A DNA stretch of 53,692 bases. Source: a virus. The stretch covers positions 1-53,692 of the IMG/VR virus record IMGVR_UViG_3300050133_000100. The stretch is one strand, 5' to 3'. Below, piece after piece: positions 222 to 48,222 of the stretch; position 1 is the stretch's first letter, and every line of letters starts with the position of its first letter. The notes beneath the pieces were generated by a model that saw only the letters and a list, made by a program, of their open reading frames with translations, did no database searches and had not been told where the DNA came from. A program made the position numbers and the translations under genes.

Positions 222-239
222 GGTTAGAGACCTTCCTTT

Positions 240-296
240 TGGGTTTGAATCGAGGTCGGCTGCGGGTTGGGATCGGAGGTCCGCTTGTCGGCTGGT
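240..296 (-). repeat. S element
   Basis: Lies in the untranslated leader just upstream of the ATG at 221 and downstream of the leftward promoter. It carries the family core GCGGACCTCCGATCC and the tail GATTCAAAC. Confidence 0.75.
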
Positions 297-1133: not shown

Positions 1134-1182
1134 TGCTAAACGCTCACTTCAAACCTCTCCAATTGTTCACGGATGATTTTCA

Positions 1183-1231
1183 GTTGTTGGGCTCAAGGCT
1201 GGGAACTATTTATGCTCGGCATTGCGCGGGG
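1183..1231 (+). repeat. R element, rightward copy
   Basis: Reads TTGGGCT, then GCTCGGCATTGCGCGG on the plus strand, ending 5 bases before the ATG at 1237. The one clear R copy facing right, and it lies directly in front of a rightward gene. It fills most of the 103-base gap after 1133. Confidence 0.75.
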
Positions 1232-1236
1232 GCTGT

Positions 1237-1683: not shown

Positions 1684-2054
1684 TGGCTTGGCTCCCCAAT
1701 CCGATAATCTGCGACGTGTGCGGAGTCCAAAAGCAGCCATCGAACCACTGGCACTATGCGGAAATTCGTCCTTATTCCGCAGCGGAAGAAAATCCGTGCT
1801 TTCTGCTTTGGCCGTGGGACTATCCGGCCGAGGATCGCTCAAAGCCCTACAAGCACATCTGCGGGCAGGCATGCGCAATTCGATTGCTGAATGAATTTAT
1901 GGGCGGGTCGGGGAATCCGCCGGAGCCGGTGCCTGCCATAAAACCCGATCCGCCTGCGCCGCACTCCGATTGGGAGCGAGTCAAGAAATCGGTTCGGGAA
2001 TCTGTTGCCGATGCCGCGCTGAAATCGACACTCGCCGCGCTCCCCACAGAATAA
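1683..2054 (+). CDS. Small zinc-binding protein
   Basis: 123 aa, start overlaps the stop of the previous gene. The N-terminus has CDVCGVQKQPSNHWHY and then HICGQACAIRLLNEF, a Cys-x2-Cys plus His/Cys set typical of small phage zinc-finger proteins. The C-terminal half is proline-rich, then a short amphipathic helix. Last gene of the rightward operon; it converges on the peptidase gene. Role unknown. Confidence 0.75.
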   Translation: MAWLPNPIICDVCGVQKQPSNHWHYAEIRPYSAAEENPCFLLWPWDYPAEDRSKPYKHICGQACAIRLLNEFMGGSGNPPEPVPAIKPDPPAPHSDWERVKKSVRESVADAALKSTLAALPTE

Positions 2055-2060
2055 AACCTT

Positions 2061-2088
2061 GGCGGACAGCACGACGGCGGTTTACCCC
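2061..2088 (+). repeat. L element between convergent genes
   Basis: Contains GACGGCGGTTTACCCC. Unlike most copies it is not in front of a start codon; it lies between the stop at 2054 and the stop at 2095. Confidence 0.6.
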
Positions 2089-2094
2089 AAAATC

Positions 2095-2841: not shown

Positions 2842-2853
2842 GAATTCTCCTTT

Positions 2854-3045
2854 TTAGTTTGAATCGAGGTGGGATGCGGGTTGGGGTGGGAGGTCCGCTT
2901 GTGGGACTGTCTCGATCAGGACGGTATGGGCATTCGTTGCGGAATTTGGACAGGGTGTTACGCGGTCATCTTGGTTGAACCGCTGGTCACAAAGAATGCA
3001 ACGATAGTTGACAGTTGTCGTCTCGTCGTGAAGAAAGCATGTCAC
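2854..3045 (-). CDS. Small zinc-finger-like protein with S-encoded tail
   Basis: 63 aa from GTG 3045, which overlaps the TGA of the gene ending at 3042 (GTGA). Cys pairs CILC and CPNS around residues 17-35 suggest a small zinc site. The last 15 residues come from the S element. No known function. Confidence 0.6.
   Translation of the reverse strand: MTCFLHDETTTVNYRCILCDQRFNQDDRVTPCPNSATNAHTVLIETVPQADLPPQPASHLDSN
2857..2905 (-). repeat. S element
   Basis: Upstream of the peptidase ATG (2841). Also encodes the C-terminal tail (ADLPPQPASHLDSN) of the gene ending at 2854, so it is read here in the A-D-L-P-P frame. Confidence 0.8.
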
Positions 3046-4159: not shown

Positions 4160-4392
4160 AAATCGTTCCTTTTGTGGTTGAATTCGGGCTGTGTTTTAAA
4201 GTTCTGGCGGGATGCCCGCTTGTTGGCCTCCCGTATCCGCTGCTGGGTCGCCCGCATCTTGGCCGCCGTGCGTTCCAAACGCTCTGACTTGTAGGGATGC
4301 CATTTAAAATAGAGAATGCGTGAAATCTGCCGGTCGGTTAATTCAGCCGATGAGCGGACCATGCGCCGAAAACCTTTATCCGCAGCCTCCAT
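4156..4392 (-). CDS. Small basic helical protein
   Basis: 78 aa, rich in Arg and Lys (RTAAKMRATQQRIREANKRASRQ). Its opening ADKGFRRMVRSSAE resembles VQKGFRRVVRSVAI of the rightward gene at 36644-36916, so the two may share an N-terminal nucleic-acid-binding piece. The C-terminal tail is encoded by a weak S element. Confidence 0.65.
   Translation of the reverse strand: MEAADKGFRRMVRSSAELTDRQISRILYFKWHPYKSERLERTAAKMRATQQRIREANKRASRQNFKTQPEFNHKRNDL
4176..4226 (-). repeat. S element, degenerate copy
   Basis: Only the tail AGCCCGAATTCAAC and a distorted core (ACAAGCGGGCATCCCGCC) remain. Upstream of the ATG at 4159. Confidence 0.5.
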
Positions 4393-4400
4393 TCAAACCC

Positions 4401-4760
4401 TCATCTCTGAAACAAAATCGTCACCAAGTCTCCCGCTTGAATCGCTCCAGACGGGTACGTTACGATCACGTTGCCAGATTGCGTGTAATCGCATGGCGCG
4501 GGCGCGGGGGGAACTGGCGCACAATTCAATCCTGCACGCTGCAGAAGTCCGTTGCGGTAGACCAACACGAACGAGCTGCGGGCCGATACAGGCGTTGAAA
4601 ATGTCGAATCCCCGGCGTTGGATGGCGGAAAATCATCTCGCTCCAAGGTGAGCCCGTATGATTGGGTTACGGTCGGACCTTGGGCTTGGATGGTTCGAAC
4701 TCCATCCCGTCCGAACCAGGCGAATAAGGGAACGAGGATCAGCCAAAAGAAACGTTTCAT
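4401..4760 (-). CDS. Exported protein with phage surface-type C-terminal domain
   Basis: 119 aa from ATG 4760. Residues 1-27 form a signal peptide (MKRFFWLILVPLFAWF, cleavage near AQG). The C-terminal half (FVLVYRNGLLQRAG, DYTQSGNVIVTY, AIQAGDLVTILFQR) has the pattern of a small beta domain common at the ends of phage fibre and baseplate proteins. Export of such a domain is unusual. It sits in the replication-side operon, away from the virion block. Confidence 0.7.
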   Translation of the reverse strand: MKRFFWLILVPLFAWFGRDGVRTIQAQGPTVTQSYGLTLERDDFPPSNAGDSTFSTPVSARSSFVLVYRNGLLQRAGLNCAPVPPAPAPCDYTQSGNVIVTYPSGAIQAGDLVTILFQR

Positions 4761-5200
4761 GGTTTGGGTTCACCTTTCGTTTGCGGGTCGGGCGCGGCCT
4801 CAGTGTTTGAATTCAGGCTCGCCGCAAGGTCTTCGGTGGGAGGTCCGCTCGTCCGCTGCAATGCGCCTGCTACGGTGTCGGCGTACGCGTGTAGATACCT
4901 TGCGGCGCTGGGGCCATCCATAATGTTTTCGATGATCGTCTGCGCGCAGGATCGAAGACACGCGGCAATGCCGGCCGGGTCTGGATCATCGCCGCGCAAC
5001 GCCGATCCTGAATCGGGCAGACTGGTCAACGGCGGTTTATCACTCAGAATCGGGCTGGCTAAAGGTGAGATTCCTTCATCGCCAGCGCGCCACGTAATCA
5101 GCCGTGCGAGTTTCAGCTTCTCCTCGTACTGCTGAATGAGGGCTTCTAGTTGGACGATGCGGGCTTCGGCTTTCCCGGCGCGTTCTTGCCAGTCGGTCAT
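4757..5200 (-). CDS. Coiled-coil protein carrying R- and S-encoded segments
   Basis: 147 aa. The first 35 residues are a coiled coil (ERAGKAEARIVQLEALIQQ). The R element at 4991-5020 encodes LPDSGSALRG in the middle, and the S element at 4803-4861 encodes SGPPTEDLAASLNSNTE near the end. The stretch between them (IAACLRSCAQTIIENIM) is the only other folded-looking part. Function unknown; the gene looks assembled around the repeats. Confidence 0.7.
   Translation of the reverse strand: MTDWQERAGKAEARIVQLEALIQQYEEKLKLARLITWRAGDEGISPLASPILSDKPPLTSLPDSGSALRGDDPDPAGIAACLRSCAQTIIENIMDGPSAARYLHAYADTVAGALQRTSGPPTEDLAASLNSNTEAAPDPQTKGEPKP
4803..4861 (-). repeat. S element inside a coding region
   Basis: Core GAGCGGACCTCCCACC and tail GAATTCAAAC; translated in the G-P-P-T frame at the C-terminus of the gene at 4757-5200 and upstream of the ATG at 4760. 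Confidence 0.8.
4991..5020 (-). repeat. R element inside a coding region
   Basis: Short copy (GGATCGGCGTTGCGCGGCG on the minus strand) whose expected tail is replaced by an adjoining L copy. Translated as SALRGDD. Confidence 0.6.
5021..5043 (+). repeat. L element fused to an R element
   Basis: Plus strand reads TCAACGGCGGTTTATCAC directly after the R copy. The same R-then-L join occurs at 37349-37404. Confidence 0.6.
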
Positions 5201-6608: not shown

Positions 6609-6857
6609 TTACGTGTTTGAATTCGGGCTGTCGCTCTCGTTGGGATCGGAGGTCCGCTCGTCCGCTGCGCCTTCGCCTTCGGGTTCAGCGGCGGCCATCT
6701 GGATTGCTTCTTCGGGAGTCTTGCCGCATCCCAACAGTTCGTTCTGGTCGGATCTGTGGCTCTTGTAGATACGGTATGGCTTACCGTCTTCGAAGTTCGG
6801 GAAGTTCGCGAAGAATAAATTCCAATCGTGCTTTTGCAGTAAGGCTTCTATGTTCAT
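6609..6857 (-). CDS. Small protein with S-encoded tail
   Basis: 82 aa from ATG 6857 with GGGGGAAGAG upstream; the start overlaps the stop of the 31-aa gene before it (ATGA). The first 60 residues (LLQKHDWNLFFANFPNF, then PYRIYKSHRSDQNELLGCGKTPEEAIQMAAAE) look like a compact alpha/beta domain of the kind seen in small phage proteins. The end (AADERTSDPNESDSPNSNT) is S element read in the D-E-R-T-S frame. Confidence 0.7.
   Translation of the reverse strand: MNIEALLQKHDWNLFFANFPNFEDGKPYRIYKSHRSDQNELLGCGKTPEEAIQMAAAEPEGEGAADERTSDPNESDSPNSNT
6611..6668 (-). repeat. S element
   Basis: Full copy: GACGAGCGGACCTCC, AGCCCGAATTCAAAC. Ends 9 bases before the glycosyltransferase ATG (6602) and encodes the C-terminus of the gene at 6609. 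Confidence 0.85.
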
Positions 6858-8158: not shown

Positions 8159-8640
8159 AAATCCTTGTTTTTGGCCGCGTTAGTGGGTGACGGTTTGGGC
8201 GCTTGGCGCGCGGTGGCATCGTTGTCGATCTTATGCGCCGTGAGGTTGGTATCCACTTCCAGGGTAGTTGGAACAGCGGGAGCAGCGAGAGGGCGCCGGA
8301 GCTCCCCTTCGGCGATTCCCGCCATTCGGCCCGATACTTCCCCTTCCAGATGTCCGACTTTGCGAGCGCTTGCCATGAAAGCATCCAGTCGCGAATTCAC
8401 CGCCAGGTGCGTTTCCTGCGCCTTCATGAAGGTCATAATGACGCCGGTCGTCGTGCTCAGAAAGCCGATCACGGTCGCGATGAGAACGCTATTGTCCTGA
8501 GTCGGGCGCAGCGAGGTCAACACGAGGATGGCGATCACTCCCAGGCATGCCATGAGTACGCCGGTGAGGGCATAAGGCCAATTGGAGGGTGGGTTCTGCT
8601 GAGATGGTTGGGGCATGTCTTCGAAGGTGATGAGCATCAT
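8155..8640 (-). CDS. Two-helix membrane protein with coiled-coil tail
   Basis: 161 aa from ATG 8640 (or ATG 8637). Two transmembrane segments (ALTGVLMACLGVIAILVLT and SVLIATVIGFLSTTTGVIM) are followed by a helical region (AQETHLAVNSRLDAFMAS) and a polar tail. The pattern and its overlap with the muramidase gene suggest a holin or a virion membrane protein. The L element supplies the bases directly before the start. Confidence 0.75.
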   Translation of the reverse strand: MMLITFEDMPQPSQQNPPSNWPYALTGVLMACLGVIAILVLTSLRPTQDNSVLIATVIGFLSTTTGVIMTFMKAQETHLAVNSRLDAFMASARKVGHLEGEVSGRMAGIAEGELRRPLAAPAVPTTLEVDTNLTAHKIDNDATARQAPKPSPTNAAKNKDL

Positions 8641-8756
8641 AAGTGGTAAACCGCCGTCCACCAGTATGCCAAGGTTTCCAGCTCTGGGAGCGCGGAGATA
8701 GTCGCCGCGTAATGCCGAGTACGGCCCGTAAATCCGCGTTGAACCCAAACCCTCAT
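8637..8756 (-). CDS. Junction ORF built from R and L elements
   Basis: 39 codons from ATG 8756 to TGA 8637, overlapping the next start (TTATGATG). The whole frame consists of the R element, a 50-base spacer and the L element. It may be a translated coupling leader rather than a functional protein. Confidence 0.35.
   Translation of the reverse strand: MRVWVQRGFTGRTRHYAATISALPELETLAYWWTAVYHL
8643..8660 (-). repeat. L element
   Basis: GACGGCGGTTTACCAC ending 2 bases before the ATG at 8640. Confidence 0.8.
8704..8750 (-). repeat. R element
   Basis: TTTGGGTT ... ACTCGGCATTACGCGG, just after the stop of the beta-helix gene (8762). With the L copy at 8643 it makes an 'empty' junction nearly identical to 14450-14560. 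Confidence 0.8.
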
Positions 8757-8761
8757 TTTAC

Positions 8762-10270
8762 TCACTGCGCAAAAGCGGAATTCGATCCCGTACTGGTGGA
8801 ACTTGCTTGCTGCAACGCTCCGAAACTCAGAGCGCCCGACTGCGAAAGCCCCGGAAGCGCTCCAGGTGTAGCCGTTCCTTTCGCCGCCGCCCCGCCGCCC
8901 GCCGTGGAATTCAGAGTGAAATCGTGCGTTCCGGCGTTGGTGAACGGACTCGCTGTCAGGGTCACGTCCAATGTGTTCGTGTAGGGGTTAGCTGCGTTGA
9001 TCGGATTCGTTGTTCCTGTATCGTCGGCGTTGTTCCTTGCGGCTGTCGTGTTCCCGAAATAAGCGTTACCGTCCCACTGCGGGAACTTTCCCCAGCCTGG
9101 ATTGACGTTGTAGCCGTTCAGTCCATAGCGGGCGTTGGAGATCAGCAGATTGTTGCGCGCCGTTGAATCGGACCCGAGCGAAGCGTTATTAGTGAACTGG
9201 ATTCCATCCTGACCATTATTGTAGATAGTGTTGTTAAAAATGACGTTTATGCCTGAATTGTTCACCAAAATGCCCTGACTCGACGCGCCGGAATTGTTCG
9301 CAATCACGTTGAAGCTGGCCATCGATCCGCCTCCCGCCAGCACGATTCCCGATCCGGTATTGTCGTGGATGTAGTTGCGCTCGATGGAATTTTGAGCTCC
9401 TCCGCTATTCACGGCGCCATTGCCGGCGCTTGCGGTATTGGCGGTGATTTCCGAGTCCATCAGCCTGGACGTGCCGTTGGCCAGATTGACGCCGATAGCC
9501 AGGCAGTTCTTCACCAGCAGGTTTCGTAGCACCGAATGCGAATTGATGCGCGCGCCGAGCGATCCGGTCAAGCTATTGCAGTCGATCACGAAATTACTGA
9601 TCCACCATCCTTGCCCGTTGGTTCCGTCGAGGGCCGTGAGATTGGAGTTGGTTGTGAGTTGGATCGTCGCGCGGCCCGTGTCGGTGCGGCTGGTCGTATA
9701 GCCGATGAGTTGGTTGGGCGGTGCGGCATTGGTTGGCGTGAACTGATTGGCGAGCGTGAGATTCGCCGTGATGGAATAGGTAGCCGTGGCCTTCACGAAG
9801 ATGATATTCTGCGCGGTCATGACCGCAAGGGCCTTGCCGATCGTGGCCAGCGCGCCGCCGATGTTCATCGTCATGCCGGTGGAAGCGGCGATGGAGGAGT
9901 CGATGGTGATGGTGGTCGCGTTCGTGAAAGCGGTCACTTGCTTCCAAACCGCTGTAATGCTACCCGTCCCCCCGGAAAACTCCACGATGTTTCCAACGAT
10001 GGCCGCTGAAAAATTCCCCGTAATGCTGGTGATGGTGGTTGTTCCGATCGCTACCGCGTCAGTGGTGGAAATGTTGACCGTGGCGGATTGGCAAGAGGAG
10101 CAGGCCGCAGCGTTCTTGTTGTTGAACTGGGACATGTCCGTCCCGGTCGCGCCTTGCACGAAGCCGCCGCCGTTGGTGTCGCTCGAAACCGTGCGGACTT
10201 CCCAGGCAGTGTTGCTCGATATGGCAGCAAAGCACGGCGCAGAGATTAGAATAAGAAACAATCCCTTCAT
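8762..10270 (-). CDS. Exported right-handed beta-helix protein
   Basis: 502 aa from ATG 10270 (TGATG overlap with the gene before it). Signal peptide MKGLFLILISAPCFA. The N-terminal region (TNGGGFVQGATGTDMSQ) is a pattern I know from soil-phage surface proteins. Residues about 230-400 are parallel beta-helix repeats (NSIERNYIHDNTGSGIVLAG, NVIFNNTIYNNGQDGIQF), as in pectate-lyase-like tailspikes and depolymerases. No catalytic residues can be pinned down. Likely receptor binding or capsule degradation. A signal peptide suggests the protein, or an assembly stage, lies outside the cytoplasm. Confidence 0.82.
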   Translation of the reverse strand: MKGLFLILISAPCFAAISSNTAWEVRTVSSDTNGGGFVQGATGTDMSQFNNKNAAACSSCQSATVNISTTDAVAIGTTTITSITGNFSAAIVGNIVEFSGGTGSITAVWKQVTAFTNATTITIDSSIAASTGMTMNIGGALATIGKALAVMTAQNIIFVKATATYSITANLTLANQFTPTNAAPPNQLIGYTTSRTDTGRATIQLTTNSNLTALDGTNGQGWWISNFVIDCNSLTGSLGARINSHSVLRNLLVKNCLAIGVNLANGTSRLMDSEITANTASAGNGAVNSGGAQNSIERNYIHDNTGSGIVLAGGGSMASFNVIANNSGASSQGILVNNSGINVIFNNTIYNNGQDGIQFTNNASLGSDSTARNNLLISNARYGLNGYNVNPGWGKFPQWDGNAYFGNTTAARNNADDTGTTNPINAANPYTNTLDVTLTASPFTNAGTHDFTLNSTAGGGAAAKGTATPGALPGLSQSGALSFGALQQASSTSTGSNSAFAQ

Positions 10271-10806
10271 CACTGACACCAAATCTGCCCGGTTACCCGT
10301 GTTACCGTTGTAGCCGTTGCGACCGAAAATCCAAACACATCCCCAGTCGAAACCGCCGCCGTCCATCCTGATCTAGAACCATTTTGCGCCAGTTGCGCCG
10401 TGGAGAGAGTTAGCGGAGCCGACGCGGAAATCTTGTTGCCTGAAGTCGGAATCGCCCCGGCCGCTTTCCAAACATCCACGGTAATCGAACCGGATTGATC
10501 AGCCGAGATATCCCAGCGGTTTATGGTACAAGTGAAATCCGCTGTCGGGTAGACCTTCGCATCCCCAAGGACGATGACCGAGCCGCCGCCGTCGATTACG
10601 AAGCTTATGGAGTGGAGTTGAGAACTTCCTGCTCCCGCACAGGTGGTGCCGTTGTCGATGAGGCTTCCAGCGGCACCGACTTTCACGCAATTTCCAATTG
10701 TAAACGCTCCCGTTATCCTGCCACGCGAGACGAATGATGGCCCTTGCGCCTGGCCGGTCAGAGCAAAGAAGCAAAGAAACAGCCAGATTAATTTGTGGCG
10801 ATCCAT
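10270..10806 (-). CDS. Exported phage surface (fibre-type) domain protein
   Basis: 178 aa from ATG 10806. Signal peptide MDRHKLIWLFLCFFALTGQAQ. The rest is one domain with SISFVIDGGGSVIVLGDAK, CTINRWDISADQSGSITVDVW and GDVFGFSVATATTVTRVT, a beta-sandwich that I recognise from the C-termini of many phage fibre and baseplate proteins. Here it stands alone behind a signal peptide. Probably exposed on the virion and involved in host contact. Confidence 0.78.
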   Translation of the reverse strand: MDRHKLIWLFLCFFALTGQAQGPSFVSRGRITGAFTIGNCVKVGAAGSLIDNGTTCAGAGSSQLHSISFVIDGGGSVIVLGDAKVYPTADFTCTINRWDISADQSGSITVDVWKAAGAIPTSGNKISASAPLTLSTAQLAQNGSRSGWTAAVSTGDVFGFSVATATTVTRVTGQIWCQ

Positions 10807-11834
10807 GAGATGCTCTGACCTCCCGCTGTCGCGATGACGAAAATGAGATTGGTGTTCGAAACTGGCCCACAATAAGCGTCTCCCGGCGCTAGTTCCATTC
10901 CTGTAGACGTCGTAATTCCCGTTGGACCGATGTAGACCGATGCGGTGTTGGTCGAAAGCCCTTTAACGCAGATATTCTTCGCTGCTCCTGAAGTCAGAGC
11001 CACAGCCGCATTCGTCACTGCCTGCTGAGCGGAGCGTACCGCGCTATTGCCTGAGAGTTGTACCAAAGGTCCATGTGTTTCATCGCCTGGCGCTTGCGAA
11101 AAATGATTTCCATCCGCAGTAGTGATAATCGGCAAACTGTAAATACCCATCCCCCCTAGCATGTTGCTCGATTGCAAGAATGGCATGCTGGTTGTGGTTC
11201 CTAAATCGGGTGGCTGGGTAGTTCGTGCCCCTAGTATCAGCCCCCCGAAGAAATCGACCAGGAGTGGCTCGATATTACCTGCATTCGTATCGAGCCCTGC
11301 TACCAGCACTGGAGGAGTCGTAGGCGGGCTTCCTGAGGCAGTGGGACCGATTACCGGGCAGGGATTAGGGCAGCCTGTTCCGGCCGGCGCTCCGCTTCCC
11401 GAATTTGGATTCGTTTTGAAGCCGTGGAATTCCGCCGTCAAGTACCCGGCTCCCGTGGTGGTGATCTGAACCCGCACGTAAGGAAAGTACCCGGTAGCTC
11501 GAATCTCGCCCTGGTTGGTTGCCGTGGTGGGATTCACTGAGCCGGTTACGATCGTGCCGGCGAACGATACGAAGGTTCCTGCCGCTCCTGCCGTTGTCAA
11601 AGGAGCGCTCTGAAGCAATACGGAGACCGTAGCGAAGCCAAATGAAGAGTAGGTGACTACCCAGCCGTCGCACGCTGCGAATCGATTGTCGACCGTCGCG
11701 CTGTTGAAGGTTCCCGCCGTGGTGATCGCCGGTTGCAGGAATTTGCCGCAGTCCGCTTGAACGCTAGAGACGGGCTGGAGTTGCTGAGCGTAGGCTAAGG
11801 GGATGATGAGGAGTGCGAGTAAGAGAGTTTTCAT
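10788..11834 (-). CDS. Exported beta-rich surface protein
   Basis: 348 aa from ATG 11834. Signal peptide MKTLLLALLIIPLAYAQ. Two beta domains are visible: residues about 20-140 (WVVTYSSFGFATVSVLLQS ... YVRVQITTTGAGYLTAEFHG) and about 240-348 (KNICVKGLSTNTASVYIGPTG ... AYCGPVSNTNLIFVIA), joined by a Pro/Thr-rich linker. The second is the kind of receptor-side sandwich common in phage appendages. Overlaps the next gene by 19 bases. Confidence 0.72.
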   Translation of the reverse strand: MKTLLLALLIIPLAYAQQLQPVSSVQADCGKFLQPAITTAGTFNSATVDNRFAACDGWVVTYSSFGFATVSVLLQSAPLTTAGAAGTFVSFAGTIVTGSVNPTTATNQGEIRATGYFPYVRVQITTTGAGYLTAEFHGFKTNPNSGSGAPAGTGCPNPCPVIGPTASGSPPTTPPVLVAGLDTNAGNIEPLLVDFFGGLILGARTTQPPDLGTTTSMPFLQSSNMLGGMGIYSLPIITTADGNHFSQAPGDETHGPLVQLSGNSAVRSAQQAVTNAAVALTSGAAKNICVKGLSTNTASVYIGPTGITTSTGMELAPGDAYCGPVSNTNLIFVIATAGGQSISWIATN

Positions 11835-11851
11835 GTTGTTGGGCTCGACAG
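11834..11851 (+). repeat. R element, partial
   Basis: Only the TTGTTGGGCTCG end, at the start codon of the minus gene 11834. Confidence 0.45.
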
Positions 11852-11890
11852 TCGGTCGAGGGTTTCAGTACTGAAGTGCGCTGTGGCGTA

Positions 11891-11919
11891 TTGCGCCCGC
11901 TGCTGATTCGGCGCATACT
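11891..11919 (+). promoter_or_regulatory. Promoter for a leaderless transcript
   Basis: TTGCGC, 17-base spacer, CATACT at 11914-11919. The GTG at 11926 begins 7 bases after the -10 box, the same distance as at 15921/15928 and 18569/18576, so transcription should start at the start codon. Confidence 0.6.
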
Positions 11920-11925
11920 TGACGG

Positions 11926-12159
11926 GTGAACAATCCGATGCTGCAATCCTTTCTTTCGACCGCGCTGCCGATAGTGATCGCTCTTTCGACCGCGCTGCCG
12001 ATAGTGATCGCCGTTCTTTTTGGCACGTGGGCGAATAATAAGCGGCTGGATGACTTCGCGCGCCGTCTGGATCGCATCGAAGGGATTCTTGATCGCATCG
12101 AACAGCGGTTAGCCAGCCAGGGTGAGCGGATAACTCGGCTAGAGGTTGCCAGGCATTGA
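11926..12159 (+). CDS. Membrane-anchored coiled-coil protein on a rightward cassette
   Basis: 77 aa from GTG 11926. Residues 8-33 are hydrophobic and include a perfect 10-residue duplication (LSTALPIVIA twice), then a coiled coil (LDDFARRLDRIEGILDRIEQRLASQG). Similar in style to the protein at 6-221. It lies against the direction of the surrounding virion genes and has its own promoter. Probably a small membrane accessory protein. Confidence 0.65.
   Translation: MNNPMLQSFLSTALPIVIALSTALPIVIAVLFGTWANNKRLDDFARRLDRIEGILDRIEQRLASQGERITRLEVARH
11953..12012 (+). repeat. Tandem duplication, 2 x 30 bp
   Basis: Units 11953-11982 and 11983-12012 differ only at the last base. In frame, so it lengthens the transmembrane helix of the gene at 11926-12159 by ten residues. 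Confidence 0.95.
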
Positions 12160-12163
12160 CCGC

Positions 12164-12212
12164 CCCCGCGCAATGCCGATCCTGAGCCTGCGTCGAATGT
12201 CGAGCCCAAACT
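12164..12212 (-). repeat. R element
   Basis: Minus strand TTTGGGCTCGACATTC ... GATCGGCATTGCGCGG. Begins 5 bases after the stop at 12159, so it follows the cassette gene. Confidence 0.75.
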
Positions 12213-12323
12213 AAGGTCCTCATCCCGTAGGTACGTAGAACCAACGGCCTAGGGCAAGAAATAGAACCAAAATCGGACACGCTGGTACCATTTCGCACGT
12301 CTCTAAGGCAGGAGAATAAAACG

Positions 12324-12398
12324 ATGCTGTTAAACTGGTTCTGGAAATTGTACAATCGGCGGATGACAAAAGCGATTCTGAAACGGCTGGAAGCATGA
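12324..12398 (+). CDS. 24-aa leader-like ORF
   Basis: MLLNWFWKLYNRRMTKAILK... from ATG 12324 with GGCAGGAGAATAAAACG upstream, a near-perfect ribosome site. Its TGA overlaps the ATG of the next gene (ATGA), so it probably couples translation to it. The product would be a short amphipathic, aromatic peptide. Confidence 0.55.
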   Translation: MLLNWFWKLYNRRMTKAILKRLEA

Positions 12399-12817
12399 TC
12401 TGCGACGGGCCAAATGGAATCGAGGCCGTGACTAGCATGACGCTGCGCGATCAGTACGGAGAGGTCGAGGTCGGAATCGGAGACCTGTTCGAATACAAGG
12501 GCGCGACTCTGGCCGTCGTTTGCCCTGAGTTGAGCGCTTGCACGGCAGATATGCCAGTCATTTGCGTTCGGCTGAAGAGGGGCGTAATCGAAAAGGGCGG
12601 CCAACGGTTCGAAGCCAGCGAAGAGAAAAATAATCTGCTGTTCGACTTCAGTGGAGATCTGGTCGCCGGATTGATCCGAGAGCATCGCCTGATGACCTTC
12701 GACATTCCCGCCCCACCTGTCCAGCCTCCAGCACGGATCGAAAAGAAAAGCCCCCGCGCTCCCACCCGCAAGAAGGGCGCACAAGAGCACGGCCCAACGA
12801 CTGGAACCCTGTTTTAG
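12395..12817 (+). CDS. Hypothetical protein on a rightward cassette
   Basis: 140 aa, coupled to the 24-aa ORF. N-terminal 110 residues look folded (YGEVEVGIGDLFEYKGATLAVV, then MPVICVRLKRGVIEKGG), followed by a proline- and lysine-rich tail. Antisense to the virion block, in the gap between 11834 and 12879. A minus-strand frame is open along its whole length, so the strand choice rests on the good ribosome site and coupled start. Confidence 0.6.
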   Translation: MICDGPNGIEAVTSMTLRDQYGEVEVGIGDLFEYKGATLAVVCPELSACTADMPVICVRLKRGVIEKGGQRFEASEEKNNLLFDFSGDLVAGLIREHRLMTFDIPAPPVQPPARIEKKSPRAPTRKKGAQEHGPTTGTLF

Positions 12818-12878
12818 CCATAGTAAACCATGGCAGAGGCTCCTGCGATTCGTCCTAGGGGCTCTAATCGTCGGCATT

Positions 12879-13460
12879 TTACCTCTTTGGATACTGCCAT
12901 CCCACTACAGCCGCATTCAGCCGGTCTGCAGGATCCAGTCTCCCGAGCGCCCCGGCGCCCAAACTTGCGAAGATTTGGACCCGTTGCAAGGAAAGCAAAC
13001 GGATGTACCCGCCTACAAGCGCATGCGGGTTTCGCAGATCGTTAAGTGAAAAGATCACGTTTGAGAAATCCGGTATCCAGCGCTGACCCACCTGCATTCG
13101 CCAGATGACGTCGCCCGAGCCCTCGACGAAACCGGAACCCGCGACCGTCATCATGACATTGGTTCCGACTCCATCCCATCCGATGGGCATGGTGAAATCG
13201 AGAATTTGCGTATCGACGAGCTCCGCGGCCGGAAGTGGGATCGATCCGACTTTCTGCAGCCTCTCTCCCTCCGGTGGCATTTCAACCCAAGGTGCTTTCA
13301 GGTAGCGCTTTTTACGCATGGTCTGGCAGACCATTTCGAGTCCACCGCGGAGGATGATTTGTTCCCAGAGTTGGCATTCCTGGTTTAAGCAGTGGTTGAA
13401 GGCGTTGGGTTGTTCCCAGATTCGGTTTTGGAGGGAGAGGCAGGATTCGACTAGGGGCAT
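12879..13460 (-). CDS. Virion-type beta protein
   Basis: 193 aa from ATG 13460, with AAGAGG upstream and an L element before that. The first 60 residues are helical with cysteine and tryptophan pairs (CLNQECQLWEQIILRGGLEMVCQ). The rest is beta-rich and ends VVGWQYPKR, comparable to the FLGVKRYKLN and FHGVRRRPC endings of the genes at 18025 and 16449. I infer a capsid-associated jelly-roll-like protein; no family was recognised. Confidence 0.65.
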   Translation of the reverse strand: MPLVESCLSLQNRIWEQPNAFNHCLNQECQLWEQIILRGGLEMVCQTMRKKRYLKAPWVEMPPEGERLQKVGSIPLPAAELVDTQILDFTMPIGWDGVGTNVMMTVAGSGFVEGSGDVIWRMQVGQRWIPDFSNVIFSLNDLRNPHALVGGYIRLLSLQRVQIFASLGAGALGRLDPADRLNAAVVGWQYPKR

Positions 13461-13750
13461 GAAACCTCTTGGTGGTAAACCGCCGTCGTGCTGTCCGCGA
13501 AGGTTAAGGTAGAGGGGAGCGCGGTGGCAGTCAGTTGGAATTCTGGCCGGTCCGAACGGTCCATACGCTCGGTTGGGATGCGCTCGATCTCGATCATGAT
13601 CACGATAGGTGTTCCGCCGTTCCATTCCGCGCGACGGGCCGCGAAGTGCTCCGCTACCAATTTTAGCGAAGAACACCATGAGCCCTTACGTAATCCAAAC
13701 GCTCGGATGGATCGCAGCCGTTCTGTAGTGGTTCCGTGATAGGCGATCAT
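13451..13750 (-). CDS. ADP-ribosyltransferase-like protein
   Basis: 99 aa from ATG 13750, overlapping the upstream stop (ATGA). N-terminus IAYHGTTTERLRSIRAFGL then GSWCSSLKLVAEHFAARRA and PIVIMIEI follow the pattern of small ART-fold proteins (YHGT box, later strand with Glu). They transfer ADP-ribose from NAD or are inactive relatives. The C-terminus runs into the L element. Its position between virion genes is odd and fits a cassette inserted at an L junction, here in the leftward direction. Confidence 0.6.
   Translation of the reverse strand: MIAYHGTTTERLRSIRAFGLRKGSWCSSLKLVAEHFAARRAEWNGGTPIVIMIEIERIPTERMDRSDRPEFQLTATALPSTLTFADSTTAVYHQEVSCP
13471..13487 (-). repeat. L element
   Basis: GACGGCGGTTTACCACC, upstream of ATG 13460 and inside the 3' end of the ART-like gene. 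Confidence 0.8.
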
Positions 13751-13875
13751 GGGCACTCTCCGGCTTTCCGAATTCGAATTGGTCTGCGACCCGCTTCACC
13801 GATAGCGCGTCTCACCGCGCAAAGACTTCGATGAAGCCGAGCAGCCAGTACTACCCAACCTATAAACCGCTTCAT
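13747..13875 (-). CDS. 42-aa junction ORF with hydrophobic start
   Basis: ATG 13875 overlaps the stop of the upstream gene (TGATG), and its TGA overlaps the start at 13750. Starts MKRFIGWVVLAARL, like a short signal anchor, and continues into a degenerate R element (about 13806-13845). May be a coupling leader or a remnant. Confidence 0.4.
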   Translation of the reverse strand: MKRFIGWVVLAARLHRSLCAVRRAIGEAGRRPIRIRKAGECP

Positions 13876-14438
13876 CACGTACACTGAGCTCCTCTATCGA
13901 TCATGTCACACGGTTCTGAAAAATAAAGCGCCAGTTGGCAATTCACAGGAACCGTATCCAGGTTTGCAATTTCCACCGAAAGCAATCCCGGTTTCACGAA
14001 CAGCCGCGGCTGCGTCAAAAGGCATGGCGTCGAGCCCGAGGGGAGAACGATCCCGGCAACCGAAACATCCGGCCGCGGATAGACCGCCTGCGCGTTGATG
14101 AACTCGCTTCCAAACTGACATCCTGTCGCATCGTCGGTGATCTGAATTGAAAGAAGCGATGGCGCCGCAACTCCGAAGAAGTGGCCGCCTTCCACCGTAA
14201 ACTTGTAGCAGGTGGCTCCCCACAAATACGAATTCGGCGTGATACGGATCTGCCGGTTGAACTGCCCTCGAGCCGGGATTGGAATTGTCAGATCGTCAGG
14301 CAAGACCCAGATTCTCTCCCGGTAGTTGTGCGCCCGCCTCAGGGGATCCAGTTGCCCCAGGAGCATGGCGATCGCACGGTAGGGTAAGTATCTGATTGAG
14401 GGGTTCAATGCCCAGCCGTCTACTATGTTGGTAAGCAT
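13875..14438 (-). CDS. Jelly-roll-like virion protein
   Basis: 187 aa from ATG 14438. The body reads as eight or more beta strands (QIRITPNSYLWGATCYKFTV, SLLSIQITDDATGCQF, VSVAGIVLPSG, RLFVKPGLLSVEIANLD, CQLALYFSEPC), as expected of a single jelly roll. Sister proteins by style are at 16449, 18025 and 12879. I infer a capsid or vertex component; fold prediction would be the test. Confidence 0.65.
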   Translation of the reverse strand: MLTNIVDGWALNPSIRYLPYRAIAMLLGQLDPLRRAHNYRERIWVLPDDLTIPIPARGQFNRQIRITPNSYLWGATCYKFTVEGGHFFGVAAPSLLSIQITDDATGCQFGSEFINAQAVYPRPDVSVAGIVLPSGSTPCLLTQPRLFVKPGLLSVEIANLDTVPVNCQLALYFSEPCDMIDRGAQCT

Positions 14439-14572
14439 GGCCGCCTTTGTGGTGAACCGCCGTCGCACATTCCGCGAAGGTTTCCGATTGTCGTGCGCGC
14501 GGAGACTGTCACCGCGCAATGCCGAGCACGGCCCGTCAATCCGCGTTCAGCCCAAACTAAAAGCACTTTCAT
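14423..14572 (-). CDS. Junction ORF built from R and L elements
   Basis: 49 codons from ATG 14572 (MKVLLVWAERGLTG...), ending inside the next gene's start. Nucleotides match the junction at 8637-8756 closely but the translation differs after the first residues, so constraint seems to be on the DNA or RNA. Confidence 0.3.
   Translation of the reverse strand: MKVLLVWAERGLTGRARHCAVTVSARTTIGNLRGMCDGGSPQRRPCLPT
14450..14464 (-). repeat. L element
   Basis: GACGGCGGTTCACCAC, 11 bases before ATG 14438. Confidence 0.8.
14511..14560 (-). repeat. R element
   Basis: TTTGGGCTGAACGC ... GCTCGGCATTGCGCGG, right after the stop at 14581. With 14450 forms the second 'empty' junction. Confidence 0.85.
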
Positions 14573-15834: not shown

Positions 15835-15857
15835 GGGTTAGAGCGCTCCTTGGATTA

Positions 15858-15874
15858 GGGGTGAACCGCCGTTC
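15858..15874 (-). repeat. L element
   Basis: AACGGCGGTTCACCCC, 24 bases before ATG 15834 and left border of the cassette at 15892-16443. Confidence 0.8.
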
Positions 15875-15891
15875 GCCGGGTTGCCCGATGC

Positions 15892-15921
15892 GTGCAAGCC
15901 AGTGCGCGGGAGCTGTACAAT
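15892..15921 (+). promoter_or_regulatory. Promoter for a leaderless transcript
   Basis: TACAAT at 15916-15921 with a weak GTGCAA 18 bases upstream. ATG 15928 starts 7 bases after the -10 box. Confidence 0.5.
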
Positions 15922-15927
15922 AGCGCC

Positions 15928-16443
15928 ATGCCTGAACAGCCGTTCTTGTTTTCCGATGGGCCATGGATTCTGATTCGTGACGGAAACGTGAGCGCGCTTT
16001 CGATCTTCTCGCGCCACTATTCTGCTAAGCGGAAGCCAGAAATGCAGGCGCAATTCGTTGGACCCGGTGAGTCGATTGTGCTGCTGAGCCCCGACGCGCG
16101 CGCTCTGTTCGTGTGGCGGAAAGAACGGTATCGGCTTGATGGTCAAATCGGCGTCAATAATGCAGTGTTTCGTAACGAGGGATCGAGCGCCGGCCGCGCC
16201 AGTGATCTGATTGAAGCCGCCGTCTCGGAAGCATGGCAACGCTGGCCCGGAGAGCGCCTCTTTACGTTCGTTGATGCTTCCAAGGTTCGACATAAGCGCG
16301 ACCCTGGCCGGTGATTCCTGAGGGCTGGATTCAAGCCCTGCGGCGTAACGCCGAAGGGTTTGCTCATCTTCGAACGGCTTCCCGATTGCCGCCGCGCAAT
16401 GCCGAGCACGGACCCGCAACATCCCGATCAGCCCAAACAATAA
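15928..16443 (+). pseudogene. Conserved phage protein interrupted by an in-frame TGA
   Basis: Reading runs 128 codons from ATG 15928 to TGA 16312-16314, then stays open in frame for 42 more codons to TAA 16441. The sequence (ALFVWRKERYRLDGQIGVNNAVFRNEG, WQRWPGERLFTFVDASKVRHKRDPG) belongs to a family I know from phages and bacteria that normally continues GYCFxxAGWxxCGVTKxGLLxLE. The continuation FLRAGFKPCGVTPKGLLIFE is present, with TGA at the Cys position. This is either a nonsense mutation or recoding. The tail RAMPSTDPQHPDQPKQ is R element. Confidence 0.75.
16391..16440 (-). repeat. R element
   Basis: TTGGGCTGATCGGG ... GCTCGGCATTGCGCGG, right border of the cassette, between it and the stop at 16449. 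Confidence 0.85.
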
Positions 16444-17333: not shown

Positions 17334-17347
17334 TGGCCGAATCCTTT

Positions 17348-17366
17348 GGGGTAAACCGCCGTTGAC
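17348..17366 (-). repeat. L element
   Basis: TCAACGGCGGTTTACCCC, 15 bases before ATG 17333. The 70 bases beyond it (to 17436) are shared with 18482-18570. Confidence 0.8.
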
Positions 17367-17407
17367 CAGTTCTCACGCTTCGTGAAATACCCGAGCCCTG
17401 TGATGGG

Positions 17408-18459: not shown

Positions 18460-18481
18460 TCTTAGAAGGCTCCTTGGATGA

Positions 18482-18500
18482 GGGATAAACCGCCGTTGAC
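18482..18500 (-). repeat. L element
   Basis: TCAACGGCGGTTTATCC, before the AAGGAG and ATG of 18459; left border of the cassette at 18541-18989. Confidence 0.8.
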
Positions 18501-18540
18501 TAGTCGCGCCGATTCGTAAATACCCGAGCGCGGCGATGGG

Positions 18541-18989: not shown

Positions 18990-18999
18990 CGCGACTTTC

Positions 19000-19048
19000 C
19001 CCGCGCACTGGCAAGCACAGAGCGTAACGTACAGTTGAGCCCAAACTA
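19000..19048 (-). repeat. R element
   Basis: TTTGGGCTCAACTG ... GCTTGCCAGTGCGCGG, 11 bases past the cassette stop. Confidence 0.7.
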
Positions 19049-20744: not shown

Positions 20745-20821
20745 GCGACACCTTCTTTGGGTGAACCGCCGTCGTGCTGTCCAACCGATTCGGAAATACC
20801 CGAGCCCGGTGATATCGTCAT
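20741..20821 (-). CDS. 26-aa junction ORF
   Basis: ATG 20821 with AAGGGAAC upstream; TGA 20741-20743 overlaps the ATG at 20744 (ATGA). Consists of the L element and 30 bases shared with the junctions at 17348 and 18482. Probably a coupling leader. Confidence 0.45.
   Translation of the reverse strand: MTISPGSGISESVGQHDGGSPKEGVA
20759..20774 (-). repeat. L element
   Basis: GACGGCGGTTCACCC, upstream of ATG 20744. Confidence 0.8.
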
Positions 20822-28858: not shown

Positions 28859-28880
28859 GTCAGCGCCTCAATTGGGATTA

Positions 28881-28897
28881 GGGGTAAACCGCCGTTG
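28881..28897 (-). repeat. L element
   Basis: CAACGGCGGTTTACCCC, upstream of ATG 28858; left border of the cassette holding 28939-29157. Confidence 0.8.
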
Positions 28898-28938
28898 AAG
28901 ATTTCTGCTATTCTGGCCATCAGTGCGCGGAGGCCTTG

Positions 28939-29157
28939 ATGCTCGGACGCATTTCCGAAATGTCCGAAACTGTCACCTGTCCCGACTGTGGCGCATTCTT
29001 CACAATTCATCGCCACAGCGAATTCAGCATACGTACGAGTTCGGAATGCCCGGTATGCTCTGTTCCTGAATTGGCGCAACGCTGGGGACCGGAATTTCAA
29101 CGCCTCCGCGCAATGCCGAGCACAGAGCCGCAACATCCCGATCAGCCCAAAAACTGA
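28939..29157 (+). CDS. Zinc-ribbon protein on a rightward cassette
   Basis: 72 aa from ATG 28939 with GCGGAGG upstream. Two CxxC knuckles (CPDCGAFFTIHRH and CPVCSV) form a zinc ribbon, as in small transcription or translation factors. The last 16 residues (RAMPSTEPQHPDQPKN) come from the R element, exactly as in the cassette gene at 15928. Opposes the virion operon. Confidence 0.65.
   Translation: MLGRISEMSETVTCPDCGAFFTIHRHSEFSIRTSSECPVCSVPELAQRWGPEFQRLRAMPSTEPQHPDQPKN
29105..29153 (-). repeat. R element
   Basis: TTTGGGCTGATCGGG ... GCTCGGCATTGCGCGG, 7 bases past the stop at 29160. Nearly identical to the copy at 16391. Confidence 0.85.
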
Positions 29158-30329: not shown

Positions 30330-30408
30330 AGAACACCGCCGCGCAAAGCCGAGCATGGAGTCGTGAGAACAGTTGAGCCCAACAACTAAATTTAGCCCGA
30401 GTCCTCAT
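30322..30408 (-). CDS. 28-aa junction ORF
   Basis: ATG 30408 overlaps the upstream TGA and the TAG overlaps the next gene's start region. Consists of an R element. Possibly only a coupling leader. Confidence 0.35.
   Translation of the reverse strand: MRTRAKFSCWAQLFSRLHARLCAAVFYG
30337..30388 (-). repeat. R element
   Basis: TTGTTGGGCTCAACTG ... GCTCGGCTTTGCGCGG, ending 8 bases before ATG 30329. No L copy follows. Confidence 0.8.
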
Positions 30409-33960: not shown

Positions 33961-34160
33961 AGGTTTTCCTCGACTGTGGATAAACCGCCGTTGACCAGCA
34001 AAGGAAGGTTTCCGGCTTGCGGGAGCGCGGAAACATAGAATGCCGCTTGAGAATGTTGGGCAACGCTTGTTTTCGATATTCTGACCGAGTATTCTGCGGC
34101 CGCGCAATGGTTCGCACGGATCGGGCACAGTGACGCGGCCAATATATAAGGATGCGTCAT
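33957..34160 (-). CDS. 67-aa junction ORF
   Basis: ATG 34160 overlaps the upstream TGA and its TGA overlaps GTG 33960, so it is coupled on both sides. Spans a damaged R (about 34104-34150) and the L at 33977. Begins MTHPYILAASLCPIRANHCA. Uncertain whether the peptide matters. Confidence 0.4.
   Translation of the reverse strand: MTHPYILAASLCPIRANHCAAAEYSVRISKTSVAQHSQAAFYVSALPQAGNLPLLVNGGLSTVEENL
33977..33998 (-). repeat. L element
   Basis: GGTCAACGGCGGTTTATCC, upstream of GTG 33960. The following AAGGTTTCC and GGAGCGCGGA match the junction at 8643-8756. Confidence 0.8.
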
Positions 34161-36643: not shown

Positions 36644-36916
36644 TTGGCATCGGCTGTACAAAAAGGTTTCCGGCGCGTGGTCCGCTCGGTGGCGATTGTG
36701 ACCGGCCCTTGCTCAACGTGCCGATTCTGGAAATACAAAAACACCGTGCATCCAAACTGGGGCCACTGCAAACGAGCGCAAGAGCAAACCGAGACCGTCT
36801 ACTTTTCCGAGCACCCGGAGGAGCGGCCCCGCTTTATCGCCATCGGAAGCCCGAAGGTAACCGGGATACTCGCAACTCACGCCGAATTCCGCTGTAACGA
36901 GTTTCAACCGAAATGA
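36644..36916 (+). CDS. Small zinc-binding protein
   Basis: 90 aa from TTG 36644. Starts VQKGFRRVVRSVAI, like 4156-4392. CSTCRFW and GHCKR give a Cys-x2-Cys ... Cys site, later FRCNEF. The pattern (C..CRFW......G.CKR) is common in small phage proteins. Function unknown. Confidence 0.65.
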   Translation: MASAVQKGFRRVVRSVAIVTGPCSTCRFWKYKNTVHPNWGHCKRAQEQTETVYFSEHPEERPRFIAIGSPKVTGILATHAEFRCNEFQPK

Positions 36917-37974: not shown

Positions 37975-38336
37975 AAGGCTCCTGCAAACTCTGCGGCGCC
38001 GTGATCGAAACAGATCCCGATCCAATCATGGATGAAGACCACGAGAAGCGGGAGCGTACCGCCTTCTTCAATCGGATCGCTTTTCACATCGACCCGCGCA
38101 ACAAGCGATGCACCGCGAACAATCAGAAACTCCCGGTTAGCCGCTTCAACATGCTGGTTCAGGATAACGGCTGGTTTCAGCGCTGGCGCTTGCTGGCGTG
38201 TCTCGATTCGCTTGATGCATACTCGCTCGCTAAACAAGAGGAGTGGCGCACATATCTCCACGCCATCACGCTACCGCGCACTGACGAGCAAGAGTCCGCG
38301 CCGCCCGTCGAGCCCAAACCCGAATCGGTTCAGTGA
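37971..38336 (+). CDS. Small zinc-finger-like protein
   Basis: 121 aa from GTG 37971 (GTGA overlap). Opens KGSCKLCGAVIETD, then a helical region with NKRCTANNQKLPVSRFNMLV and WFQRWRLLACLDSLDAYS. Pro/Glu tail. Function unknown. Confidence 0.7.
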   Translation: MKGSCKLCGAVIETDPDPIMDEDHEKRERTAFFNRIAFHIDPRNKRCTANNQKLPVSRFNMLVQDNGWFQRWRLLACLDSLDAYSLAKQEEWRTYLHAITLPRTDEQESAPPVEPKPESVQ

Positions 38337-38662: not shown

Positions 38663-38673
38663 CTATTCTTTTT

Positions 38674-38720
38674 GTTTTTGAATGGAGGCAGTCTGCGTGT
38701 TGGGAAGTGAGGTCCGCCCT
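38674..38720 (-). repeat. S element between convergent genes
   Basis: GGCGGACCTCACTTCCC and a weak tail. One of the few S copies not before a start codon. Confidence 0.6.
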
Positions 38721-38723
38721 GAT

Positions 38724-39041
38724 TTATTCGGCTATGCATCGGTAATACCTATCTGTTTCTCCGCACCATATGGCAGGGTTAGGATACATCTTAGCTTGCT
38801 CTAAAAAATCGGCAAATGTCGTTTCCATAATTGGGAGAAGCAAACCGGGTGCCAAGTCTCCCAGGTTCCCACTTGTCACTGTGAAGGTAATGGGTACGCC
38901 AATTTCGACCCGCTCGTCTCGACATGTTGGGACAATAATGACGTAGCCCCGAGTATTAAGAATGTCCTGCCAAGTACACGAGCGGACCACGCTTCCGAAA
39001 CCTTGCAGACCACCTCCATTCAAACACTCATTCTCTGTCAT
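38724..39041 (-). CDS. Hypothetical protein
   Basis: 105 aa from ATG 39041 (ATGA overlap). Beta-rich (GYVIIVPTCRDERVEIGVPI) with ETTFADFLEQAKMYPNPAIW near the end. Last gene of the leftward replication block. No family recognised. Confidence 0.7.
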   Translation of the reverse strand: MTENECLNGGGLQGFGSVVRSCTWQDILNTRGYVIIVPTCRDERVEIGVPITFTVTSGNLGDLAPGLLLPIMETTFADFLEQAKMYPNPAIWCGETDRYYRCIAE

Positions 39042-40288: not shown

Positions 40289-40533
40289 TACGCGGACTTC
40301 CCATCCAAACAGGCGCGACGGCCCGAATTCAAACCCTCGGCCTTCTGCTTACCTGCTAACCATCCTAATCTCCATGCTTGTTGAAGGTCGCTGAATCCAT
40401 AAGGGGGATGATCTCGGGTGGAGTTTTCAAAGTCTGATACGCCTTGCTCGTAAGCTTTGCGCTTAGCCGCGTCGAACGTTTTGGCCGCCGCGTTTGAAAG
40501 GATGTCCAGCGCAATACCGTGAGCCGTCTTCAT
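40288..40533 (-). CDS. Small hypothetical protein
   Basis: 81 aa from ATG 40533 (ATGA overlap). Helical with aromatic middle (YEQGVSDFENSTRDHPPYGF, AWRLGWLAGKQ), the latter like small phage proteins ending xxxxGWxAGxxA. Confidence 0.68.
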   Translation of the reverse strand: MKTAHGIALDILSNAAAKTFDAAKRKAYEQGVSDFENSTRDHPPYGFSDLQQAWRLGWLAGKQKAEGLNSGRRACLDGKSA

Positions 40534-48220: not shown

Positions 48221-48222
48221 CT
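48171..48222 (-). repeat. S element
   Basis: GGCGGACCTCCCACCC ... TATTCAAAAA, just past the HNH gene stop, at the upstream end of the non-coding gap. Confidence 0.65.

Follow-up and report, generated by a model that had tools for sequence, protein, structure and literature searches.

The viral genome record IMGVR_UViG_3300050133_000100, analysed over its full length of 53,692 bases and referred to here as the window, ends on both sides in an identical 127-base repeat and is therefore probably a complete phage of about 53.6 kb. Three families of short repeated sequences, termed the L, R and B borders, are dispersed over this genome and over related viral contigs, and they frame small genes whose presence and position differ between relatives. 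The borders are best understood as scattered boundary sequences that serve as points of exchange for accessory genes, homologous or near-homologous recombination being the most likely means, a reading to which we assign a probability of about 0.55.

The border models for R, L and B (53-59 nt) were built by iterated profile searches with hidden Markov models (HMM) trained on the window itself; B came out of the repeat analysis as a family of its own. For counting, overlapping matches were merged and cut-offs from 14 to 20 bits were tried. At 15 bits or more, the window contains 46 borders and the distant, syntenic 56-kb relative G006 contains 42, the latter count being the more independent because the models were trained on the window. 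The same models gave one match at this level in 20 shuffled windows taken together. Each border is 53-59 nt long, and in every family two boxes, one outer and one inner, are nearly invariant and lie about 30-40 bases apart (the consensus set leaves out G004, G005 and matches below 20 bits). The inner ends are common to L and R (GCGCGG..CCGCGC), whereas L, R and B each have an outer end of their own. Borders face inward as pairs of an opener and a closer, and at 15 bits the alternation of openers and closers exceeds chance in the window (p 0.007) and in G006 (p 0.007).

The relatives are viral contigs found by scanning with border patterns and handles. G006 proteins are mostly 25-75% identical in amino acids to those of the window, and those of G008, a 21.6 kb contig, are often near 78%. 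The contigs G004 (9.9 kb) and G005 (4.2 kb) reach 99.9% nucleotide identity. The 23.8 kb contig G001 has a single, weak protein match to the window (28% amino acid identity) and carries R and B borders, one R at 39 bits and four weaker ones. Pattern matches in G002, G003 and G007 scored at most 5.2 bits and were discarded as chance. The R pattern had no match in bacterial genomes; a laxer L pattern matched at least 118 bacterial loci, none of which proved to hold a border by HMM among the matches listed (best 9.6 bits). Curated phages gave no DNA match to the short bracket at 14446-14560, and plasmids gave a single chance-level match (E 0.09). Searches for close relatives of the tail genes found none, one of them returning G006 only; for the tail region no strains matching G004 and G005 in closeness turned up, and the finest comparisons are therefore limited to the early region.

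A sequence-only reading of the window had singled out two short junctions of one layout in the tail region and had taken them for the unoccupied state of a gene-acquisition site. The common layout is confirmed: 8643-8750 and 14450-14557 align over their full length with 85 of 109 columns identical, at a score of 60, whereas 5000 random windows drawn from this genome reached at most 27. Four further sites had been listed as having the same two ends with rightward genes between them. Three of these (15855-16441, 18479-19048 and 28878-29155) do have an L, an R and intervening rightward open reading frames (ORFs), whereas 17348-18000 has a strong L end (42.7 bits) but no R above 4 bits in 17900-18030. 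The small ART-like gene at 13451-13750, thought to start from an L border, ends at one, because it lies on the minus strand and L encodes its C-terminus; Pfam supports the ART-like assignment weakly (KptA family, E 0.031). The picture of an L/R unit proved incomplete, since L and R are two of three border families across the whole genome, being separate gene-end sequences that combine freely with B. Repeated gene acquisition, the core of the proposal, is supported by the relatives; a single 115-base site is not.

The short L-R units are best read as brackets from which the gene is absent. Besides an unused site, such an empty bracket may represent the scar of a deletion, because a third short bracket (33977-34147) retains 59 bp of cassette DNA that stands ahead of a gene in G006. 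Minus-strand ORFs that span whole cassettes (15838-16503, 17326-18018 and 18462-19133) were set aside as presumed shadow ORFs because the plus-strand ORFs read as proteins and one of them is conserved in G006.

Comparison with relatives reveals the same accessory gene at different junctions, differing content at one junction, and empty as opposed to occupied junctions, which bears out the comparison of occupied and unoccupied sites that had been proposed; identical cassettes everywhere with no empty sites are not what the relatives showed. The 62-aa cassette gene at 17566-17754 recurs at 806-997 of G006 with 79% amino acid identity, between different core genes and inside the bracket L464-R1204, which it shares with a tRNA-Met (557-628). 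Window 34037-34095, enclosed by L33977-R34147, is 96.6% identical in nucleotides to G006 1895-1953, enclosed by L1823-R2531 at another junction. This similarity begins just inside the L inner end, and the G006 copy stands directly ahead of a 171-aa ORF, whereas the window retains the fragment only. Window 12215-12860 is off synteny in G006 (3346-4057), matching it over 106 bp at 88.7% and 465 columns at 67% nucleotide identity, and the similarity begins exactly at the inner edge of an R. Also off synteny is a stretch of 65 bp at 4911-4975; it lies between B4800 and R/L4989 in the window and between B41701 and R42373 in G006. The off-synteny segments were chosen by eye from coordinates and represent five of 37 G006 matches (four segments) and one of 26 G008 matches. 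Two of the four G006 segments lie in an automatic bracket in the window and three in G006; the off-synteny G008 match (13768-13874) overlaps a degenerate R and may be border only. Within the relocated segment, the leader at 12215-12320, which precedes the plus-strand gene 12395-12817, is 88.7% identical to G006 and the gene stretch 67%; it may be a regulatory leader.

Three junctions differ in content between the two genomes. Junction e/f holds the ART-like ORF in the window and a 171-aa plus-strand ORF in G006. Junction f/g is empty in the window (L14446-R14560) and carries a plus-strand gene in G006 (L3120 to R4209), only the left neighbour gene being demonstrably orthologous (30% amino acid identity). 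Junction h/i contains an L and two ORFs in the window, and both flanking genes abut directly in G006. Of the two empty junctions, only 14446-14560 has an occupied counterpart in G006; the G006 interval corresponding to 8640-8753 has no detected border.

In the near-identical strains, flanking stretches differ from the window at 7 of 2470 positions in G005 and 2 of 3531 in G004, and gene content differs at three places, with one edge exactly at a B border. Window 44414-45339, comprising two B borders and two genes, is replaced in G005 and G004 by 317 bp with another gene, and the left edge of this swap, at 44414, falls exactly at the B inner box. With this edge, three edges of relocated or swapped content lie at or near border inner ends. 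At 49409-49766 the G004 allele is different, shorter and devoid of an R, while the window allele contains one. G004 also carries one gene more, near 53.34-53.38 kb; a gene boundary is repeated directly over 37-38 bp on either side of it, and a degenerate B-like sequence, found by eye, stands at the end of the inserted gene. A fixed ancestral architecture, in which genes and borders descended together, would account for border-gene pairs that are orthologous, such as L2035 beside gene 1683-2054 and L46066 in G006, but it is contradicted by the content relocated or swapped between the window, G006, G004 and G005 and is very improbable.

Most borders lie at gene ends. In the gene and border statistics, genes shorter than 55 aa and ORF 15838-16293 were left out, and five ORFs were added by hand per test: 15925-16314, 18576-18989, 28960-29157 and 38724-39041, together with 11926-12159 for the gene-end and both-ends test or with the trimmed 44420-45053 (replacing 44352-45053) for the automatic-bracket test. 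A gene end is touched by 36 of 47 borders, compared with a mean of 11.4 and a maximum of 23 in 500 rotations. Along the direction of transcription, R and a B subtype are located at the 5' ends of genes or cassettes, and L and B at the 3' ends. A ribosome-binding site and start codon lie just outside L in 12 of 25 cases (background 7.8%) and just outside B openers in 6 of 25; for R, an ATG occurs within 24 nt before the border in 17 of 34 cases (background 26%). Borders flank both ends of 11 of the 44 genes that are non-syntenic with G006 and of one of the 39 syntenic genes (Fisher p 0.004; rotation p 0.0005). The small plus-strand ORFs in the minus-strand tail operon have no syntenic counterparts in G006. 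Nearly half of the window borders (22 of 46) lie mostly within called genes. Within coding sequence, sense R is always in one frame (7 of 7) and B is used in at least two, which points to conserved DNA rather than a conserved peptide. Gene 51146-52123 holds two R-B brackets in frame, which suggests that protein segments may be exchanged as if they were cassettes.

This placement at gene starts and ends, with L so often adjoining a ribosome-binding site and start, also suits the idea that the borders are regulatory sites (translation initiation, promoter or terminator) kept for expression, with swapping as ordinary phage mosaicism. The near invariance of both boxes in each family fits this idea, and there are precedents: the intergenic repeats of 56-58 bp in halovirus HF2 are proven promoters (PMC8707807), and the start-associated sequences of cluster K are located at gene starts (PMC3203893). 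Against it, neither sigma-70-like sites (3 versus 6.1 expected) nor terminator-like sites (8 versus 13.0 expected) are enriched in 8600-20900, no conserved RNA structure is present, and many borders are inside genes, B in more than one frame. A regulatory role alone also leaves the same accessory DNA in different brackets unexplained, and we consider it improbable as the full account; regulatory and exchange roles may coexist. An RNA element or ribozyme was rejected, as consensus folding gave 0 pairs for L and B and five weak pairs for R, and the Rfam search returned no match at E 1 or less.

A second alternative holds that the bracketed units are mobile cassettes with imperfect terminal inverted repeats, moved in an integron- or MITE-like manner by an unrecognised site-specific recombinase or transposase of the phage, the host or another phage. 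It draws on the facing orientation of L, R and B, the likeness of the L and R inner ends, the tandem arrangement of B-flanked genes (44362, 45028), the edges that fall exactly at a border inner end, and the R and B borders that G001 has in common with the window despite almost no shared proteins. Set against these are the mutually unlike outer ends of the three families and a target-site duplication test that is inconsistent between genomes (p 0.003 in the window, 0.81 in G006). Pairs resembling attC (RYYYAAC..GTTRRRY) occur in 0 of 15 window brackets and 0 of 9 G006 brackets, and L and R do not covary, true pairs hybridising no better than swapped pairs (p 0.42). No match to an integrase (including IntI), a transposase or a known annealing recombinase was obtained with Pfam or PHROGs among the window proteins scanned, many of which match nothing; this agrees with the earlier statement that no integrase is encoded. 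Mobile cassettes of this kind are unlikely. The bolder proposal of a genome-wide cassette system, in which the three facing border families mark off units of one gene at dozens of loci, in-frame sites within coding genes included, and an unrecognised dedicated enzyme acting at the inner box moves the units among loci and phages, is also doubtful. As a candidate single-strand DNA-binding or annealing protein, 52123-52671 was modelled with AlphaFold; the mean pLDDT was 58 and the model was not used.

The preferred reading, exchange at repeated boundary sequences, proceeds from the occurrence of dozens of near-copies in one genome and its relatives, because of which genes between two borders could be gained, lost, swapped or moved. 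Homologous or near-homologous recombination between borders would suffice for this, and no dedicated integrase would be needed. Such accessory genes would include the rightward ORFs of the tail operon. The borders at the 3' ends of genes often adjoin the ribosome-binding site and start codon that belong to the following gene. Speculatively, the HNH endonucleases present in the window could supply the cuts. The Red system recombines sequences diverged by 22% efficiently (PMC2327257). Recombination at repeated boundaries would explain the variable content of brackets, the same content in different brackets, the joints at inner edges and the direct repeats in G004. The repeats, their placement, the relocated and swapped content and the three edges at or near inner ends are direct observations. 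We infer border recombination as the cause of the moves, and with it the responsible recombinase and the direction of each gain or loss.

Several results weigh against this reading. Openers and closers do not alternate significantly in G006 once the cut-off is 20 bits (p 0.20), nor in G008, a short contig (p 0.59), and the strong conservation of the boxes is compatible with a regulatory role as well. L17345 has no recognisable partner R, and the right end of the moved segment 12215-12860 has no border in the window. Automatic brackets give weaker statistics, with 2 of 11 bracketed genes syntenic versus 37 of 71 others (p 0.051). Among the phage proteins scanned, none was recognised as a known annealing recombinase. 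In the strain comparison, 84 of 3901 positions over 45500-49400, which includes the DnaB gene, differ from G004; the swapped tract near 45.3 kb therefore has a diffuse right edge, with reduced identity to about 45.6 kb. The swap at 49409-49766 has no border at either edge, and the boundary duplicated by the G004 insertion belongs to none of the R, L and B families. Finally, the DnaB-like helicase gene 45498-46945 is 85% identical in nucleotides to G006 over 1449 columns, most other genes being far more diverged. It looks recently exchanged with no borders at its ends, and borders are therefore not required for exchange. The features discussed are collected in Table 1.

Table 1. Borders, cassette genes and moved segments of the window, with HMM scores.
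Feature	Position	Strand	Score or remark
R border; inner edge coincides exactly with that of a segment relocated between junctions	12162..12214	+	39.8 bits
Relocated segment: conserved leader and gene 12395-12817	12215..12860	+	nucleotide similarity to G006 3346-4057
L border, opener (outer end left) of empty bracket 1	8640..8695	+	40.0 bits
R border, closer of empty bracket 1	8701..8753	+	37.2 bits
Small ART-like ORF ending at L border	13451..13750	-	
L border encoding C-terminus of minus-strand ORF 13451-13750	13469..13524	+	39.1 bits
Degenerate R-like closer	13813..13863	+	4.9 bits only
L border, opener of empty bracket 2	14446..14502	+	35.0 bits
R border, closer of empty bracket 2	14508..14560	+	40.0 bits
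L border, opener	15855..15909	+	31.3 bits
Cassette ORF, 129 aa, no Pfam match	15925..16314	+	
R border, closer	16388..16441	+	36.5 bits; 92% over 49 nt to R in G001
L border, opener, partner R unrecognisable	17345..17397	+	42.7 bits
Cassette ORF, 62 aa	17566..17754	+	recurs in another G006 bracket (79% aa)
Second cassette ORF, 65 aa	17756..17953	+	
L border, opener	18479..18533	+	44.4 bits
Cassette ORF, 137 aa	18576..18989	+	
R border, closer	18998..19048	+	35.5 bits
L border without partner	20757..20809	+	40.4 bits
L border, opener	28878..28930	+	32.1 bits
Cassette ORF, 65 aa, CxxC pairs	28960..29157	+	weak zinc-ribbon matches only
R border, closer, overlapping 3' end of ORF 28960-29157	29102..29155	+	35.3 bits
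R border without partner	30336..30387	+	40.2 bits
L border, opener of third short bracket (33977-34147)	33977..34030	+	34.3 bits
59-bp cassette remnant	34037..34095	+	96.6% to G006 1895-1953, different bracket
R border, closer of third short bracket	34099..34147	+	27.3 bits
B border at 3' end of gene	238..294	-	44.3 bits
R border, opener of a plus-strand gene unit	1182..1233	-	35.9 bits
L border, closer of the plus-strand gene unit opened by R 1182-1233; ortholog adjoins same gene in G006	2035..2091	-	38.6 bits
B border	2853..2902	-	32.0 bits
B border, opener	4171..4227	-	31.8 bits
B border, closer subtype	4344..4402	+	38.5 bits
B border, opener, in frame within gene 4757-5200	4800..4858	-	52.4 bits
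Merged R/L border, closer, in frame within gene 4757-5200	4989..5045	.	23.1 and 40.9 bits
B border at C-terminus of gene 6609-6875	6610..6667	-	44.2 bits
Weak B border	36652..36688	-	17.8 bits
R border within plus-strand gene	38271..38319	+	31.7 bits
B border, opener	38671..38719	-	36.6 bits
B border, closer subtype	38978..39029	+	42.1 bits
B border, opener	39714..39769	-	36.0 bits
B border, closer; left edge of segment at 90% nucleotide identity to G006	40292..40337	+	26.9 bits
R border encoding N-terminus of helicase gene 41514-44351	44285..44335	+	36.4 bits
B border; inner edge is the edge of allele swap versus G005	44362..44419	-	39.4 bits
B border, direct repeat of B 44362-44419	45028..45086	-	43.3 bits
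B border at end of HNH gene 48221-49096	48170..48222	-	30.7 bits
R border within allele absent from G004	49576..49627	-	31.3 bits
B border, opener	50845..50902	-	41.7 bits
B border, closer subtype, in frame	51175..51233	+	37.8 bits
B border, in frame within gene 51146-52123	51423..51481	-	44.7 bits
R border, in frame within gene 51146-52123	51705..51753	+	43.4 bits
B border, in frame within gene 51146-52123	51813..51869	-	46.7 bits
R border, in frame within gene 51146-52123	52001..52048	+	30.6 bits
B border at C-terminal end of gene 52668-53342	52683..52739	-	31.8 bits
Weak L border	52936..52971	-	17.0 bits
R border at N-terminus of gene 52668-53342	53241..53293	+	37.6 bits

Other features of the window and its relatives deserve mention. 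The stretch 1020-1161, covering the end of gene 465-1133 and the following bases, is 90-100% identical in nucleotides to G006 and G008, far above the genome average, and is possibly a cis-acting site or RNA. A papain-family cysteine protease gene at 2095-2841 (Pfam Peptidase_C1, E 3e-12) adjoins an L and a B border. An ice-binding-like (DUF3494) protein is encoded at 20830-22572 beside two shorter paralogs of its C-terminal part, and the same trio is present in G006. The 543-aa plus-strand protein of 34999-36630 has no match, solved structures included, and in the set of window proteins scanned neither Pfam nor PHROGs identified a terminase, a portal or a major capsid protein. In G001, a 62-aa plus-strand ORF between minus-strand genes (13758-14124) ends at an R border and is preceded by an opener-like sequence, as judged by eye.

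Among known systems, the borders come closest to the boundary or linker sequences of phages. A gene difference between Island3 and Brujita is ascribed to recombination between C-terminal repeats of ~50 bp (PMC3029335), and the case resembles the present one in its short homology at gene boundaries, in a gene present or absent between the copies and in needing no integrase; the extra gene of G004, with its 37-38 bp flanking repeats, is an event of this kind. The window likewise has repeats at gene boundaries and content that differs between relatives with joints at the repeats (three edges), but the edges of the DnaB segment and of the 49.4-kb swap have no borders. The borders are also unlike the described boundary sequences in occurring in dozens of copies and three families over one genome and in being common to other phages. 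The promoter-early stem-loops (PeSLs) of T4-like phages are repeated intergenic motifs, units of an early promoter and a stem-loop terminator, that are said to mediate gene shuffling (PMC4503421); here there is no promoter or terminator enrichment in 8600-20900 and no conserved stem, and the borders also lie in coding sequence and form facing pairs. The start-associated sequences (SAS) of cluster K mycobacteriophages are 13-bp asymmetric GGGATAGGAGCCC-type sequences just upstream of gene starts, mostly in one orientation (PMC3203893). SAS and ESAS resemble the borders in their many copies per genome adjoining gene starts, some with imperfect inverted repeats (PMC3203893), but the borders are 53-59 nt long, occupy both gene ends, have another consensus (compared by eye) and enclose swapped content. 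The HF2 repeats have a similar length (56-58 bp, class I), belong to more than one class and lie in different genome regions (PMC8707807); these promoters keep their positions in relatives (PMC8707807), whereas the borders vary in content and partners and no promoter signal was found for them.

Systems with mobile genes offer further parallels. Integron cassettes are small genes with a recombination-like sequence at their end, arranged in tandem, whose attC core sites read RYYYAAC..GTTRRRY. The bracketed genes are similar in size, end sequence and tandem order, but no IntI was recognised in the window proteins scanned and no attC core-site pair occurs in any bracket tested. Compared with transposons or MITEs with terminal inverted repeats, the L and R borders have inner ends in common and unlike outer ends. 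Like the plus-strand cassette ORFs, morons are small genes that interrupt an operon and have no counterpart at that site in relatives; of their own promoter and terminator, the cassettes offer promoter-like hexamers visible by eye in some cases, with no enrichment in 8600-20900.

The borders are best read as a variant form of boundary-sequence mosaicism. The literature searched (titles and the starts of abstracts, with subscription journals mostly outside the coverage) describes no such dispersed border set, which is weak evidence that the set is new. Whether phage mosaicism originates in homologous exchange at boundary sequences or in illegitimate recombination followed by selection is a long-standing question. 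It becomes testable here, because one genome displays the borders at dozens of joints and other phages have them in common with it. If the borders recombine, one phage could swap accessory genes at any bracketed junction rather than at one site only, and the in-frame borders within coding genes suggest that protein segments may be exchanged as well.

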